DNA of 64,000 bases. It comes from Candidatus Cloacimonadota bacterium (GTDB lineage: Bacteria > Cloacimonadota > Cloacimonadia > Cloacimonadales > TCS61). The stretch spans positions 226,035 to 290,034 of the forward strand of contig JASUTE010000001.1 in the NCBI GenBank assembly GCA_030445745.1. Reading direction: 5' to 3'. The position numbers were made by a program, and so were the translations under genes. Under the pieces are notes generated by a model, which was not told the DNA's origin, searched no databases, and saw only the letters and a list, made by a program, of their open reading frames with translations. Below, in pieces: positions 36,729-52,123 of this stretch; the first letter of the stretch is position 1; each line of letters starts with the position of its first letter.

Positions 36729-37021
36729 GTTTTAGAAGTAGCCCTCAAACAAATTTAGATTCCACATTCATATTACCATGCCAAAACTGGTCAGGCAGGC
36801 AGCTGCCGAGCTTGTGTGATGGAATTGGAAGACATAGCCGGTTTAAAAAACTCTTGTACAATAGAATTTCAAGCAGATATAAAAGTGAATTTCCATACTG
36901 CAAAAATTAAGGAATCTCAGAGAGTTATTGCAATCTAGCACTTTCTTCAGGGCAGCACGACTGCCTTTCCTTACAGCAAATTTTTAACGATTTGGCAAAA
37001 CAAGAACAAAAAACATCGTAA
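36729..37021 (+). pseudogene. N-terminal remnant of a HydA/NuoG/FdhA-type iron-sulfur subunit
   Basis: VLEVALKQI*IPHSYYHAKTGQAGSCRACVMELEDIAGLKNSCTIEFQADIKVNFHTAKIKESQRVI, frameshift, NLALSSGQHDCLSLQQ. Confidence 0.8.
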
Positions 37022-37043
37022 TTTGCTGGAAGAGTTAAAAAAT

Positions 37044-37253
37044 ATGAAAACTACTGAGGCGCTGGCTTTGGCTATAAAAAAAGAACAATAAGCTGTAGAA
37101 TTTTTTCGCCATCTAGCAGAATCGGCTGAAGATGAGCAGATAAAAAAATTATGTTTGAGAATGGCAGTTATGGCGCTAACTCATAAGCAAAAATTGGAAA
37201 ACGCTCTACCGATATTGCTTATATCGAATCATTTTAAATTAATAAAGCAATAA
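37044..37253 (+). pseudogene. Rubrerythrin/ferritin-like domain with in-frame TAA
   Basis: MKTTEALALAIKKEQ*AVEFFRHLAESAEDEQIKKLCLRMAVMALTHKQKLENAL; TAA at 37089-37091. Confidence 0.75.
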
Positions 37254-37315
37254 TTTTTTATTCCTTTTTCATTGACTGATATTTGCTTAAAATACATTTT
37301 CTCTTTTAAATCAAC

Positions 37316-37410
37316 AGCGAGGATGGGTCTGGTGGCTCAGCTGGTCTGCAAAGCCAGTAGCGGGCGGATAAAACCGTCTGTGGCAGGTTCGATTCCTGCC
37401 CTCGCGGCCA
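37316..37410 (+). tRNA. selC: Selenocysteine-tRNA-like gene with GCA (Cys) anticodon
   Basis: D arm TGGGTC-TGGT-GGCTCA (6 bp, 4-nt loop); anticodon arm CTGGT-CTGCAAA-GCCAG; variable arm GCGGGCGG-ATAAAA-CCGTCTGT (8 bp); T arm GCAGG-TTCGATT-CCTGC; acceptor GCGAGG/CCTCGC; discriminator G and encoded CCA; selA, selB, selD in the window. Confidence 0.82.
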
Positions 37411-39412: not shown

Positions 39413-39425
39413 AATTGGAGCTGTG

Positions 39426-40820
39426 ATGAATAAAGCAGAGTTCAAAAAAATTCCTAAGGTAGATATTTTACAGAATAAACTTAAAAACATTGCTGCAAAA
39501 GTAGGTTGGAATTTAACCAACCAACTTATAAATAAAGAGTTACAAGATATTAGGAAACAAGTAGCAGCTGGTTCTAAAGCAGTTGCTGAAGATGAAATAG
39601 TGCAGTCAATAACAAAAAAAGCAGAAAAGCTCTATCATCCCTCACTGAAAAAAGTTATTAATGCTACTGGAATAATTTTGCATACAAACTTAGGCCGTGC
39701 CCCTTTGGGCAAGAAACTATTAAAAGAAATGCAACCACTACTTAGGGGTTATTCCAACCTTGAATTTGATTTGGAAAAAAATGAACGGGGAGAGCGTAAT
39801 TCGCATGTAGCTGATATCCTTAAATTTATCACCGGTGCAGAAGCAGCTTTGGTTGTGAACAACAATGCTGCTGCCGTTATGTTTTGTCTGCAAAAATTTG
39901 CGAAAAATAAACAGGTGATAATCTCTCGCGGGGAGCTGGTGGAGATCGGTGGTTCCTTCCGAATACCGGAAATAATGAGAGCTAGCGGAGCCCAAATGGT
40001 GGAAGTAGGTACTACTAACCGCACCCGCCTGCAAGATTACGAAGCAGCGATAACTGCAGATAGCAAAGTTATCTTCAAAGCTCATAAATCTAACTATTAC
40101 ATTCAAGGATTCACAGAAGAAGCAGAAATAAGTGAATTGGCTGAGTTAGCTAAGCAATATGGACTTATTTTTATATACGATATTGGTTCCGGGTTATTGC
40201 GTAAACCACAAAATTTGCCTTTAGAAAAAGAACCAGATGTAAGATCAGCTATTCAAAGTGGGGCTGATCTGGTGACTTTTAGTGGAGATAAACTTCTGGG
40301 TGGTCCACAAGCCGGCATAATTGTTGGCAGATACAGATTAGTTAGTAAACTAGCCAAAGCACCTATGATGCGAGCTTTGCGGGTTGGCAAAATTACATTA
40401 GCAGCTTTAAGTTTAGTAAGCAGAGCTTACTTGCAAGATGAACAGTTGATTCACAAAATACCAATTTTCCAAATGTTGAATACAACAGAGGAAAAATTGC
40501 TTGATAAAGCCGAACACTTAGCTGAATTACTGAAAGAGAGACAGATAAAATACGAAATTGTGGATACTCTCTCGCAAGTTGGCGGAGGAACTTTGCCAGC
40601 TTTGCAGCTTAAAAGCAAAGCAATAAAAATATTGCCGCTCAGCAAAGATAGAAAATTTGCCCAAAAGATTCATACCAAATTGCTACAGCAAAACATTCCC
40701 ATTTTAGCGATTTTACGTGGGGGAGATTTGCTGCTGGATGTAAGAACTATTTTCCCCGAAGATTATTCTTTAATTGCTGAAAGTATTAAAAAAGTTATGG
40801 TTAATTATGCAAGAGAATGA
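39426..40820 (+). CDS. selA: L-seryl-tRNA(Sec) selenium transferase
   Basis: VINATGIILHTNLGRAPL, VVNNNAAAVMFCL, SRGELVEIGGSFRIPEIM, SNYYIQGFTEE, FSGDKLLGGPQAGIIVG. Confidence 0.97.
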   Translation: MNKAEFKKIPKVDILQNKLKNIAAKVGWNLTNQLINKELQDIRKQVAAGSKAVAEDEIVQSITKKAEKLYHPSLKKVINATGIILHTNLGRAPLGKKLLKEMQPLLRGYSNLEFDLEKNERGERNSHVADILKFITGAEAALVVNNNAAAVMFCLQKFAKNKQVIISRGELVEIGGSFRIPEIMRASGAQMVEVGTTNRTRLQDYEAAITADSKVIFKAHKSNYYIQGFTEEAEISELAELAKQYGLIFIYDIGSGLLRKPQNLPLEKEPDVRSAIQSGADLVTFSGDKLLGGPQAGIIVGRYRLVSKLAKAPMMRALRVGKITLAALSLVSRAYLQDEQLIHKIPIFQMLNTTEEKLLDKAEHLAELLKERQIKYEIVDTLSQVGGGTLPALQLKSKAIKILPLSKDRKFAQKIHTKLLQQNIPILAILRGGDLLLDVRTIFPEDYSLIAESIKKVMVNYARE

Positions 40821-46181: not shown

Positions 46182-48134
46182 ATGAAGCATCTTATTATGG
46201 GCACAGCAGGGCACATTGACCATGGTAAAACAACGCTCATAAAAGCTATCACTGGCTTTGATTGCGATACCCACAAAGAGGAAAAACTGCGGGGAATTAC
46301 CATAAATCTGGGCTTTACCCATCTGGATCTTCCCACTGGCGAGAGCTTGGGAATTGTAGATGTACCCGGTCACGCCGATTTTGTGAATACAATGGTAGCT
46401 GGCGCCAGCGGCATCGATTTTGTATTGTTGGTGGTAGCTGCCGATGCTGGTGTGATGCCGCAAACGATGGAACATCTACAAATTATGGATATCTTGGGTA
46501 TAAAGCAAGGAATAATCGTACTCACCAAGATAGATTTAGTGGATAAGGTGCTTTTGGAAATGGCCAGGGAAGAAGTACGCGAAAGTGTGGAAGGTACTTT
46601 TTTGGAAGATGCCGAGATTATACCCGTTTCTGCCCAGACAGGTGAGGGCTTAGAAATTTTGGTGCAAAAATTAGCAAAAATGGAAGCAGAACTCCCGCAA
46701 CGCGAAGCTGGCGAAGTTTTTCGCATGTTTATCGATAGAATTTTCACTGTACCAGGCTTTGGTACTGTGGTAAACGGCTCCGCCCTGAGTGGTGCTATTC
46801 ACAAAAATGAAAAAGTCTATTTATTACCTCCAGCCAAAAGTTTGCGCATAAGAAGGATAGAGCGTCATGGTCAGGAGGTGGAAGAAGTTAGTTCCGGCGA
46901 TCGCGTGTCTTTAAATTTAACCGGCTTAGACAGAGCGGAATTTGAGCGAGGTATGTTGATTAGCGACCGTGTGTTGCAAAGTACCACCATGATAGATGCC
47001 AAACTAAAATTATTCCAACATAATCGTCCTTTCGCAATCTGGACGCAGGTGATTTTTTTATTAGGAACCTATCTCAGCCAAGCACGTGTACACCTTATCG
47101 ATAGTAACCATTTGGAAGCAGGGGATAGTGCTATTGTACAAATACATTTGGAAAAGCCTCTTATAGCCCAATTTGGTGATAATTTCGTTATTCGCAGCTC
47201 TTCCAGCGATATCACTTTGGGGGGAGGTGAAATTATTGATGTACATCCACTACATCACAGAAGGCGGCCAGAAAAATTAATAAAATCGCTGCACCAGGTT
47301 GTAGAGGGCGATCTCCCTGATCTGATTGCAGCAGAAATTCGTAAGCGGATTGTGCCGGTTTCCCACGATTATATGGCTGCTATTTTGAATATTTCTCCAC
47401 AAAAAGTTTTAGAAGTAGTAGCTAAAGAGTTACCTGGCGATATAATTGCGTTACCTTCCCAAGATACTGTTTATCTTATGAAACATAAAGATCGTGAAAA
47501 ATGGGAAGGTAGAATATTGCGCCATCTGAAGACTTACCATAAGCGCAACCCGATGGATGAAAAAGGTCGTACTTTCGAGGAACTGATGGGACTTTTTGGG
47601 GTTAATCGCAGTTCTACCACTGAAACCATACTACGCTTACTTTTGGATGAACTTACCAGACAAAAAAAGCTGAAAAGAGTGGAACATACCTGGGCACTGG
47701 CAGAACATAAAGTCGTGCTTACATCCCAAGAAAAAGAACAGGTAAATTTTGTAGAAAATTATTTGAAAAATTGTGGTGTACATGTACCGCTGCTTTCCAA
47801 ACTTATTTCACTGGCAAATAAAAAACAGATTGGCGAAAATAAATTGAAACAGATTCTGCGATTACTAGTGAATAAAGGCTTGGCATACAATATCGATGGG
47901 AACTTCTTGCATGCTGATTTGGTAGATGAATTCAGACAGAAATTGCTAGAATATTTAGTAGAGCATAAGGAAGGCTGCACCGTGGCAGATTTCAGAGATC
48001 TAATCGGCGGAAATCGCAAAATATGTCTGTTATTACTGAATTTATTCGACAGTGAAGGAATTACTGTACGCAAGGGTGATTATCGCCATATAACCGAAAA
48101 GGGTCGCAAAAAATTAGCTGAATTACAAGGTTAG
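46182..48134 (+). CDS. selB: Selenocysteine-specific translation elongation factor
   Basis: [55 protein letters not shown]-terminal winged-helix region. Confidence 0.96.
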
Positions 48135-48722
48135 AACCTTATCGGGACCGGTAAGATTTTCAGCAATTTCATACATATTGGAAACAGAACCTACAGCCAG
48201 TTTATCTTTTAAGCCAAAATAATCTAAGCAGGTGCCACATACCAAAATTTGCAGATCTTTTTGCAAGGTTTGCAAATTCGCCAGTGCTTCCGAACCTTGC
48301 ACAGCCAGCTTCACGCCAGAATTCATTAAAATTAACTTTTTAGGTTTGCATTGCAATTGGGTTAAAGTATATAAAAAAGATTTCATCAGCAAAGCTCCCA
48401 ATTCCTGGCTACCTTTTCCTAAAATATTGGAAGATATAAAGATTATTTTCGCATCTGGACAACTAATTTTCGGTTTATTTTTCTCTATTTTTTCCACTAC
48501 TTTGGAGTCAGTTTTTATTATCACATGATAGTTTCCAGCTTTTTGAAGTATTTCGGTAACAGTGTTTCCCATATTTTCAGCAAATCGCTGGACGTTTTGG
48601 CTGGCAGGTTTGTTATCTACAATTACTTCTAATTCACTAAATTTGCCTTCTTCTAATGCATTTTTGGTTCTAATTACAGGTTGCGGACAAGCTAAGCCGC
48701 GCCCATCAACTATTTTCTTCAT
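48123..48722 (-). CDS. yedF: Selenium-metabolism protein YedF (TusA/SirA plus DsrE-like)
   Basis: VDGRGLACPQPVIRTKNAL; C-terminal LILMNSGVKLAVQGSEALANLQTL. Confidence 0.9.
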   Translation of the reverse strand: MKKIVDGRGLACPQPVIRTKNALEEGKFSELEVIVDNKPASQNVQRFAENMGNTVTEILQKAGNYHVIIKTDSKVVEKIEKNKPKISCPDAKIIFISSNILGKGSQELGALLMKSFLYTLTQLQCKPKKLILMNSGVKLAVQGSEALANLQTLQKDLQILVCGTCLDYFGLKDKLAVGSVSNMYEIAENLTGPDKVLTL

Positions 48723-48957
48723 AATTAATATTTCCTTCCATATCTTTTTTGACAATGTATATTTTAGCGTATTGCAATTGTTGTTTAGATAAATTTTCCT
48801 TTAGTTCGGGTAGATCCCATTTTTTTGTTAACAGCGAAAATCCGCATTCAGAGCTAATTTGGCGTGGTGTTGGAATAATTTCTACAAATCTATGCAAGCG
48901 TGTGTTCGCTTTTATCGCCTGGTGCGAGCTGGCAAAGGTTATTACATATTCTGTCAT
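48706..48957 (-). CDS. DUF3343-family protein
   Basis: VITFASSHQAIKANTRL...IIPTPRQISSECGFSL; ATGA overlap with selD. Confidence 0.78.
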   Translation of the reverse strand: MTEYVITFASSHQAIKANTRLHRFVEIIPTPRQISSECGFSLLTKKWDLPELKENLSKQQLQYAKIYIVKKDMEGNINYEENS

Positions 48958-49985
48958 AATCTTACCTCTATTTTTTCTGCCTTGGAAGTTGTTTTGCCTA
49001 TCTTTTGGGCTGTTATGTTGCACTTATGCATAGCCTTGACAATTTTTGTGCTTTCTTGTTTAGGAACAACTAAAAGCAGGCCTCCAGAAGTTTGCGGATC
49101 GAAAAGGATATCTAGTTTTTCTGGTGGAATTTTGCTATTTTCTACCAGCATTTTTTGTCTGAATTCTTTGTTTCTGTAAGTACCGGCAGGAACCATTGCT
49201 AATTTAGCATAATCGGTAACCTCGGGCAGCAATTCTATCTTATCGTAATAAATTTCGACGCCAAAGTTGCTCTTCACTATCATCTCGGCAATATGTCCCA
49301 ATAAACCAAAGCCGGTAATATCGGTACAAGCAACCACGTTGAAATCATTAGCAATTTCTGCAGCATATTTATTCAGCTGCTTCATGGAGTGAGAAGAGGC
49401 TTTGATAGCTTTTGGGGAAGCTAAACCACCACGCAGAGCAGTATTGATAATGCCAGTGCCGATAGGTTTGGTTAAAATGAGATCGCAATTTGCTTGCAGT
49501 GTATTGTTTAGCAATATTTTGCTGGGTTCAGCCTGGCCAGTTACTGCTAAGCCGAATTTTAACTCATCATCTTCCACACTATGACCGCCCAGCAGAGCGC
49601 ATTCTGCTTCTTGCAGTTTGTCTAAACTTCCTCTCATAATATTTCTAAGCACATCAATATCCATTTTTTTCTGAGGAAAATTTACAATACTAAGTGCAGA
49701 AATTGGTTTTGCGCCCATCGCATAAATATCCGATAGTGCATTTGCAGTTGCGATTTGACCAAACTCAAAGGGATCGTCTACTATTGGTGGGAAAAAATCT
49801 ACAGATTGTATTAAGGCAGTATTTTCATTTATTTTATAAACACCAGCATCTTCGGCATGATGATAGTCTATTAATAAATTTGGATATTTGGGTTGGCTAA
49901 GCCCACATAAAGCCTGGTCTAAGACACACGGTCCTAGCTTTGCTCCACACCCACTGAAGCGAGTGTATTTGGTTAGATCAATCAT
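48954..49985 (-). CDS. selD: Selenide, water dikinase; residue 13 (UGU) is a candidate Sec site
   Basis: SGCGAKLGPCVL, HHAEDAGVY, VDFFPPIVDDPFEFGQIATANALSDIYAMGAKPISAL, TDITGFGLLGH. Confidence 0.96.
   Translation of the reverse strand: MIDLTKYTRFSGCGAKLGPCVLDQALCGLSQPKYPNLLIDYHHAEDAGVYKINENTALIQSVDFFPPIVDDPFEFGQIATANALSDIYAMGAKPISALSIVNFPQKKMDIDVLRNIMRGSLDKLQEAECALLGGHSVEDDELKFGLAVTGQAEPSKILLNNTLQANCDLILTKPIGTGIINTALRGGLASPKAIKASSHSMKQLNKYAAEIANDFNVVACTDITGFGLLGHIAEMIVKSNFGVEIYYDKIELLPEVTDYAKLAMVPAGTYRNKEFRQKMLVENSKIPPEKLDILFDPQTSGGLLLVVPKQESTKIVKAMHKCNITAQKIGKTTSKAEKIEVRL
49919..49937 (-). promoter_or_regulatory. Candidate bacterial SECIS hairpin in selD
   Basis: mRNA: UGU-GGAGCAAAG-CUAGGAC-CGUGU-GUCUUAG; 7-bp stem with one G-U, loop 16 nt after the codon. 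Confidence 0.6.
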
Positions 49986-51132
49986 ATGCTCGGTTCCTTA
50001 TAATCTTTTTCAATATTCTTATTGCTTCATCTATTTGCCACTGGCTGGTAAAATAACCCGGACTGAATCTCACAGTTCCGCCCCTGGCAAAAGTTCCTAT
50101 AGTTTTATGTGCTGCTGGCGCACAATGTAATCCCATGCGCGTAGCAATCTCGTATTTGTCAAGTTGAGTAGTAAGATAGCTAAGTGAAATATTAGGTGAA
50201 AACACTGAGAGGATACCAATTTGCTTCTGCAGATCAGCGGGTGATACAAGCACCAGTTCATCTATTGTTTTTAATTGTTCTACAAAATAAGCAGTAATAT
50301 CTTCTTTTTGCTTTTTTATTTTGTTCACAGATGTTGTTAACAGAAAATCTAAAGCGGCATTAAGCCCTGCTAAAGAAGCCACATTTTGGGTGCCACTTTC
50401 GAACTTATCTGGTCGAAAATCAGGTTGTATTTCGAGTTCTGAACGACTACCAGTACCGCCGAACATAAGTGGAGAAAGCTGAATTTTAGGATCACAGTAA
50501 AAACCACCAGTGCCGGTAGGTCCTAATAAGCCCTTATGTCCTGGAAAACAGATAATATCTATGTTTGTGGCAATTTTCTCCAGAGGATAAGTACCGAACA
50601 CCTGAGCTGCATCTAAACAAAAAATCACCTTGTGTTTTTTAGCTACTGCAGCCATTTCTCTGATAGGGAAAATAGACCCAATTACATTGGAAGCAGCTGT
50701 ACTTACCAATAATTTTGGTTTTTTTTGTATTTTCTGCAGAAAATCGTTCCAAATAGGAAAACCATGTTTATCGCATTTAAATTGCGATATTTTTATATTC
50801 CTGGTTTTTTCTAAATGACGCAAAGGACGCATAACCGCATTATGCTCCATACTGGAAGTTAGCACACTGTCACCTTCTGTTAAAATTCCTAGAATAACTG
50901 TATTCAATGCCTGGGTTGCGTTAAGTGTGAAACTAATATTTTCACTGTCTTCTTTTCCAAGTAATTTAACCAGTTTTTCACGTGTTTCGAATAATATAGC
51001 GCTAGCTTTCACAGCAGAGCTATGAGACGAGCGACCGGCATTTGCACCTATTTTGTCTAAAAAATTAAAAACTGCTTGGGCTACTCCAGGAGCTTTGGGA
51101 AAAGAAGTAGCTGCATTATCTAAATAAATCAT
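49978..51132 (-). CDS. Class V aminotransferase (cysteine desulfurase/SufS-like)
   Basis: YLDNAATSFPKAPGV, NATQALN, CLDAAQVFGTYPL, PGHKGLLGPTGTGGFY, GLHCAPAAHKTIGT. Confidence 0.93.
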   Translation of the reverse strand: MIYLDNAATSFPKAPGVAQAVFNFLDKIGANAGRSSHSSAVKASAILFETREKLVKLLGKEDSENISFTLNATQALNTVILGILTEGDSVLTSSMEHNAVMRPLRHLEKTRNIKISQFKCDKHGFPIWNDFLQKIQKKPKLLVSTAASNVIGSIFPIREMAAVAKKHKVIFCLDAAQVFGTYPLEKIATNIDIICFPGHKGLLGPTGTGGFYCDPKIQLSPLMFGGTGSRSELEIQPDFRPDKFESGTQNVASLAGLNAALDFLLTTSVNKIKKQKEDITAYFVEQLKTIDELVLVSPADLQKQIGILSVFSPNISLSYLTTQLDKYEIATRMGLHCAPAAHKTIGTFARGGTVRFSPGYFTSQWQIDEAIRILKKIIRNRAYD

Positions 51133-51322: not shown

Positions 51323-52123
51323 ATGGCAGGTTTCAATTCACCAAGCAGTATTGCTGAAACCGTGATAAACAAGGTTGGGGTTACTAAGTGCAAAATCGGT
51401 TTTTGGAAGTTGGTAATCTTAGGTATTTTAGCTGGTGCTTTTATTGCTTTTGGTGCTCAGTTAGCCACCCGAGTAGGTGCACTCGTATCAGATCCCGGAA
51501 TATCTATTTTAATTTTTGGGAGTGTGTTTAGTGTTGGCCTCATGCTAGTGGTTATAGCTGGAGCGGAGCTTTTTACTGGTAACAATCTTATGTTCATGTC
51601 TGTTTTAGCTGGTAAAGTCAAATATTCACAAATGTTGCAGAAATGGTTGATAGTTTTCATATCCAATTTTATAGGATCAATGCTTCTAGTTTGGTTTATG
51701 TACAGCTCAGGGCTTGTATCGGGTGATATAGCAGCTGAAGCTATTTCTATAGCACAATCTAAGGTAAGTTTATCTTTCTGGCCAGCTTTTGTGCGTGGTA
51801 TAATGTGTAATTGGCTGGTATGTTTAGCTGTATGGTTGGCTTTAGCTTCCCATGATGTTACAGGAAAATTATTTGGGATATTTTTTCCGATTATGGCTTT
51901 TGCAGCATCAGGGTTTGAACATAGTGTAGCAAATATGTATTTCATTCCTATAGGTATGTATCTGCAAGATCCCATGGAAGCAGTTATGTTAGGAGAAACA
52001 CTTATTACTTGGAAGGGATTTTTCATTAATCTGATTCCCGTTACTTTAGGTAACATAGTAGGTGGTGCTGGTTTCGTAGCTACGCTTTATTGGTTAGTAT
52101 ACTATAAACTTAAAACCAAATAA
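51323..52123 (+). CDS. focA: Formate/nitrite transporter family protein
   Basis: AGAFIAFGAQLAT, GAELFTGNNLMFMS, GIMCNWLVCLAVWLA, GFEHSVANMYFIPIGM, NIVGGAGFVATLYW. Confidence 0.93.
   Translation: MAGFNSPSSIAETVINKVGVTKCKIGFWKLVILGILAGAFIAFGAQLATRVGALVSDPGISILIFGSVFSVGLMLVVIAGAELFTGNNLMFMSVLAGKVKYSQMLQKWLIVFISNFIGSMLLVWFMYSSGLVSGDIAAEAISIAQSKVSLSFWPAFVRGIMCNWLVCLAVWLALASHDVTGKLFGIFFPIMAFAASGFEHSVANMYFIPIGMYLQDPMEAVMLGETLITWKGFFINLIPVTLGNIVGGAGFVATLYWLVYYKLKTK

Follow-up and report, generated by a model that had tools for sequence, protein, structure and literature searches.

Can a codon that belongs to cysteine specify selenocysteine (Sec) in a bacterial SelD? The question is raised by a 64,000-nt stretch of DNA (the window, from the genome, here labelled G000, of an uncultured bacterium; coordinates given without a contig are positions in the window), in which a Cys codon of selD is followed by a SECIS-like hairpin and which also encodes a tRNA-Sec with a GCA anticodon:

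48954-49985, minus strand: selD, selenide water dikinase (TIGR00476, 364.9 bits, cut-off 125; E. coli SelD structure 3u0o, E = 5e-74)
49947-49949, minus strand: codon 13 of selD, UGU, the proposed Sec codon (direct reading, and UGA or UGC at the equivalent codon in relatives)
49938-49946, minus strand: 9-nt spacer GGAGCAAAG (direct reading)
49919-49937, minus strand: SECIS-like hairpin CUAGGAC-CGUGU-GUCUUAG (direct reading, relatives, recoding test and slid-pairing comparison)
37315-37407, plus strand: tRNA-Sec, anticodon GCA (Rfam RF01852, 55.7 bits, gathering threshold 47; ARAGORN anticodon gca)

The SelD reading frame comprises 343 aa, with the N-terminus MIDLTKYTRFSGCGAKLGPCVLDQAL, and meets both requirements for the assignment, a score above the curated TIGR00476 cut-off and the presence of the catalytic Cys/Sec residue. 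A sequence-only reading of this DNA had described the UGU codon, the 9-nt spacer, the 7-bp stem and the CGUGU loop, all correctly to the base: CUAGGAC (49937-49931), loop CGUGU (49930-49926) and GUCUUAG (49925-49919) form seven pairs, one of them G-U. Its placement of codon 13 at the Cys/Sec position of SelD agrees with a phmmer alignment to 3u0o, where C13 falls on the catalytic Cys17 of the E. coli protein. Bacterial SECIS elements are hairpins closely 3' of the Sec codon, with an apical loop 16-37 nt away (PMC10778597); here the loop starts at the 17th nt past the UGU codon, with 16 nt between the two, and its second base is G, so the proposed fit to this rule holds for both the loop distance and the early G.

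Judged from the sequence of the window alone, the hairpin is weak evidence, barely beyond chance. It ranks 270th by energy among the 5802 in-frame Cys codons of the genome, and the 40-nt fold after codon 13 has z = -0.91, for which reasons energy alone is rejected as proof of Sec. Set against synonymous recodings, which preserve the protein, the hairpin gives z = -3.71 (p = 0.017). SelD could also be a plain Cys protein, with ordinary tRNA-Cys reading UGU13 and the hairpin either a relic of an ancestral gene with UGA-Sec or a product of chance; the unimpressive energy rank favours this, as do the many SelDs that are functional with Cys at this position and the fact that UGU and UGC are ordinary Cys codons. 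What makes the hairpin convincing is that both the codon position and the hairpin are conserved in relatives.

The genomes compared are draft assemblies. The alignment of relatives that had been named as a check on the proposal yields what was hoped for from it: the six best-matching SelD homologues (G046, G017, G056, G050, G049 and G040) each contain one in-frame UGA, at exactly codon 13, followed by a hairpin in the same position or close to it, and all six genomes have tRNA-Sec(UCA). A second expectation, that the stem be conserved among relatives sharing the GCA tRNA, is borne out only in part. SelD in two such genomes (G042 and G052) has UGC followed by the same 7-bp stem, with loop CGUGC or CGUGU; G045 and G053 have a different hairpin after the equivalent UGC; and SelD of G047 and G057 has none and is therefore presumably a plain Cys protein. 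That SelD lacks a hairpin in the GCA genomes of family f9 counts in favour of Cys in the window's SelD as well. For SelD of the window's type, the recoding test gives z = -3.64 in G042 and -4.04 in G052, alongside the value reported above for G000; Cys-type SelDs of genomes without the GCA tRNA lack such a hairpin (mean z -0.59, Fisher p 0.45). Over the nine homologues 84% of the pair cells are paired, compared with 22-59% when the pairing partner is slid. Covariation in this mixed nine-sequence alignment does not rise above that of shuffled alignments, 138 of 500 of which reach it.

The SelDs of G053 (L077) and G045 (L090) are of the GCACK Cys type, with a strong hairpin, GCCUUC-CGUGYU-GGAGGC, after the UGC. 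This hairpin is absent from the GCACK-type SelD of most other genomes, and the acquisition of a SECIS, without any change of codon, may here have turned a Cys SelD into a selenoprotein.

A family of secreted Omp28-like proteins provides a larger sample. The 2.04-Mb bacterial genome G000 was joined from stretches and its Cys codons with SECIS-like hairpins were listed; they include those of two adjacent genes (L353, L354 for the pair):

G000 contig C13, 38710-39981: secreted Omp28-like, thioredoxin-like gene with a CxxC motif, UGC at the first C and a hairpin with loop GGUCG
G000 contig C13, 40018-42261: secreted Omp28-like, thioredoxin-like gene with a CxxC motif, UGC at the first C and a hairpin with loop GGUCU

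Both are likely selenoproteins of G000. The second encodes a product with a secretion tail of type 9. It matches NF045500, the Omp28-related selenoprotein model, at 1.3e-17 and has its CxxC motif at the model's UxxC position, but at 64.3 bits it falls below the cut-off of 200, and its codon is UGC instead of UGA. Among its homologues, almost every one from a tRNA-Sec(UCA) genome carries a single UGA, at the Sec codon; those in GCA-only genomes have no UGA, and UGC or UGU at the Sec codon; and Cys stands there in those of family f10, for which no tRNA-Sec scored high enough to be recognised with confidence. The recoding test gives a mean z of -3.42 (Fisher p 4e-12) for 14 UGY sites of GCA-type genomes, -3.20 (Fisher p 2e-19) for 25 UGA sites of UCA genomes and -0.03 (p 0.85) for 12 Cys sites of other genomes. 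The UGY sites include G059, which was classed with the GCA-type genomes because of its kinship and the codons it uses, the tRNA not having been found in this incomplete genome; scores are weak for some homologues from G047 and G042. Pairing in the UGY set reaches 91.7% of the pair cells, and covariation amounts to 0.366 against 0.159 in shuffled alignments, with none of 500 shuffles reaching the observed value. The UGA set has 81.4% of its pair cells paired and the Cys set 44%, the latter with no excess of covariation. Selection on the SECIS structure is thus observed both in the synonymous recoding test and in the covariation of the Omp28-like UGY set. The conserved loop uses the Arg codon CGG, whose share in G000 is 6.9%, and G-U occurs in the loops of those UGY hairpins that were recognised in GCA genomes.

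The formate dehydrogenase FdhA provides a further case. Its Sec site (ARL-C-HSS) is UGC or UGU in eight tRNA-Sec(GCA) genomes, G046 among them, followed by the stem GUGGCC-GGUCU-GGCUGC, and in G017, which has tRNA-Sec(UCA), it is UGA followed by GUGGCC-GGUCU-GGCCGC. The loop GGUCU is also that of an E. coli SECIS (PMC3834832). FdhA is absent as a Sec client from G000 itself, where the only PF00384 match is a 1139-aa frame of another type.

Genomes with only a GCA tRNA-Sec therefore have UGU or UGC, and no in-frame UGA, at the Sec site of SelD, FdhA and the Omp28-like proteins, most of these sites being followed by a SECIS-type hairpin, which is missing from Cys homologues elsewhere, and all three families satisfy the requirement of a Cys codon at Sec sites that have UGA in relatives. 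As far as comparison of codons and hairpins can establish it, FdhA and the Omp28-like family repeat the UGA-to-UGY pattern of SelD independently, and taken together nine related genomes show the same switch, in three protein families. Because of phylogenetic clustering, the counts in the codon table are not independent events. The following points weigh against a SelD with nothing but Cys at codon 13. Leftover hairpins should decay, and they are indeed absent from Cys homologues in genomes without tRNA-Sec(GCA), whereas in GCA genomes they persist with compensatory changes in several families. Moreover, selA, selB and the GCA tRNA-Sec have been retained, and in G000 this machinery would otherwise be without clients, since the families checked yielded no UGA Sec site. 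We regard a plain Cys SelD as improbable, and consider with high confidence, on comparative grounds and without protein-level evidence, that SelD of G000 is a selenoprotein whose Sec is written by the Cys codon UGU.

The remaining genes relevant to Sec in the window are:

39423-40820, plus strand: selA, L-seryl-tRNA(Sec) selenium transferase (TIGR00474, 544 bits, cut-off 268)
46182-48134, plus strand: selB, Sec-specific elongation factor with C-terminal winged helix (TIGR00475, 359 bits, cut-off 242; PF09107 SelB-wing_3)
48123-48755, minus strand: yedF-like selenium metabolism protein (TIGR03527, 204.6 bits, cut-off 110; start probably an internal ATG)
48706-49023, minus strand: Se/S carrier-like protein of DUF3343 type (PF11823, 2e-16; start probably an internal ATG)
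49978-51132, minus strand: cysteine desulfurase/selenocysteine lyase-like protein (TIGR01977 above cut-off; SclA model matched, below cut-off)

The tRNA, located near selA and selB, had been put forward as a tRNA-Sec, and this is upheld by the RF01852 match, the gca anticodon, the G73 discriminator (37407) and a tRNA-Sec body with a long variable arm; CCA is encoded at 37408-37410. It is the only tRNA of Sec type among the 43 tRNAs of G000, which has a separate, ordinary tRNA-Cys(GCA) with U73 on contig C33, and its anticodon differs from that of the relatives' UCA tRNA-Sec by a single U34-to-G change. By these features it is a true tRNA-Sec with an altered anticodon and not a tRNA-Cys look-alike. 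The alternative of a selC*-type tRNA-Cys, one that receives Cys from CysRS and that SelB takes to a hairpin directing Cys, can draw on GCA being a CysRS identity element and on the existence of such tRNAs (PMC7609411, PMC11415595), but scarcely deserves credence and was rejected, because selC* tRNAs, alike in their Sec-tRNA-like body and GCA anticodon, carry U73 (PMC7609411) where G73 is found here as in the relatives' UCA tRNA-Sec, and SelB-directed Cys at a Cys codon would have no evident purpose.

The desulfurase/lyase-like protein is a likely Se donor to SelD. The gene order desulfurase-SelD-carrier-YedF is common to several relatives with UGA-SelD, the DUF3343-type gene occupying the same place beside it. 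Sec in the DUF3343 or YedF neighbours themselves was considered and rejected, relatives having Cys and no UGA at those sites. Adjoining the selenium genes, even though G000 showed no formate dehydrogenase, is a formate/nitrite transporter (51323-52123, plus strand), whose homologue in G017 (74% identical) lies beside UGA-FdhA. Between a NuoF-like gene and the tRNA, 36900-37255 on the plus strand reads as a ferritin/rubrerythrin-type protein with in-frame TAG and TAA stops, and is probably a pseudogene.

The sequences themselves show the tRNA, SelA and SelB, the codon with its conserved hairpin, and the switch away from the UGA that relatives have; charging, delivery and the actual insertion and efficiency of Sec are inferred. 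Insertion of Sec at the selD UGU codon by SelB and tRNA-Sec(GCA), the central claim of the sequence-only reading, is supported by comparison, and is very probable because the tRNA-Sec anticodon is now of Cys type while the insertion hairpin has been kept. In the mechanism that we propose, SerRS would charge tRNA-Sec(GCA) with serine, SelA would convert the Ser-tRNA to Sec-tRNA using selenophosphate, and SelB would bring Sec-tRNA(GCA) to the ribosome. The hairpin after codon 13 would hold SelB, allowing Sec-tRNA(GCA) to outcompete Cys-tRNA(Cys)/EF-Tu at that codon only, and other UGU and UGC codons would stay Cys. Since ordinary tRNA-Cys reads UGU as well, the SelD product may be mixed or mostly Cys; a Sec/Cys mixture, mostly Cys under low selenium, is likely. 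Insertion of Cys when selenium is scarce would yield full-length Cys-SelD instead of a truncated protein.

Sec recoding at Cys codons by anticodon-variant tRNA-Sec in bacteria was reportedly described by Mukai et al. in 2016, with Aeromonas salmonicida as precedent. Reports of a tRNA-Sec with a Cys anticodon and Sec at UGU/UGC (PMC10778597, PMC11415595, PMC8124441) are alike in both respects to what we infer here, and differ in the bacteria and in the client genes, here SelD and the Omp28-like proteins. For A. salmonicida the anticodon is given as ACA (PMC5756416) or GCA (PMC11415595); in G000 it is GCA. According to PMC5330540, Mukai 2016 describes a 'Cloacimonetes type' of tRNA-Sec with a 7+5 acceptor/T branch; this description fits the tRNAs found here, and part of our observations may already have been reported there. 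That the window comes from Cloacimonadota is an unproven inference drawn from its type of tRNA. Our literature search found no paper joining Cloacimonadota and selenoproteins, and the overlap with Mukai 2016 remains uncertain. The standard bacterial UGA-Sec SelD shares protein, residue and SECIS position with that of G000, but there UGA competes with release factor 2, whereas in G000 UGU competes with tRNA-Cys. If the Sec reading is correct, annotation gives plain Cys where the cell makes Sec, and searches that rely on UGA miss selenoproteins encoded by a sense codon. Since the outcome of an unsuccessful insertion would be a complete protein with Cys and not a truncated one, selenium supply could decide which of the two residues a single gene produces. 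The clade would then provide a natural experiment in codon reassignment, its genomes being UGA-only, UGY-only or apparently mixed.

The apparently mixed case is G046, which has tRNA-Sec(UCA) and one SelB on contig C92, tRNA-Sec(GCA) on C116, and a second SelB beside SelA on C82. Its SelD and Omp28-like genes have UGA, and its FdhA has UGC with a SECIS hairpin. The six contigs concerned (C92, C116, C82, C101, C30 and C27; L283, L284, L260, L117, L048 and L411) have tetranucleotide signatures that correlate with one another at 0.80-0.92, and with other genomes compared at no more than 0.78, a result that speaks against contamination without ruling it out. Whether two Sec systems operate in one cell, with a stop codon and a Cys codon both read as Sec and possibly two SelB-SECIS pairs, is in our judgement evenly poised. 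If they do, G046 could plausibly represent an intermediate stage of the window's codon switch. Bacteria that place Sec at Cys codons are known already; this apparent dual use of UGA and UGC is potentially novel.

In a pattern search of 125 genomes of the phylum, tRNA-Sec(GCA) was recovered from nine (G000, G042, G044, G045, G046, G047, G052, G053 and G057), with no other member of G000's own family, f1, among them. In the SelB tree G000 groups with G042, G044 and G045 (support 92/92) and not with f1, and G047 and G057 are placed elsewhere, beside a UCA genome, a position that requires at least two anticodon changes. The placement of G000 suggests either horizontal acquisition of the Sec system or a complex history of the group.

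A broad pattern scan for GCA Sec-like tRNAs returned listed matches that mix true and chance ones. The only one of those listed that is labelled Cloacimonadota, L206, was not confirmed by ARAGORN and has no close genes in common with G000. Also among the matches listed are long-arm GCA tRNAs with G73 (L139, L194, L234 and L247, including Rubrivivax and another Burkholderiales record), which look like further independent tRNA-Sec(GCA). Other long-arm GCA tRNAs among them end in TCCA, that is, with U73 (L157, L181 from Desulfacinum, L143, L146 and others), as expected for selC*-type tRNA-Cys.
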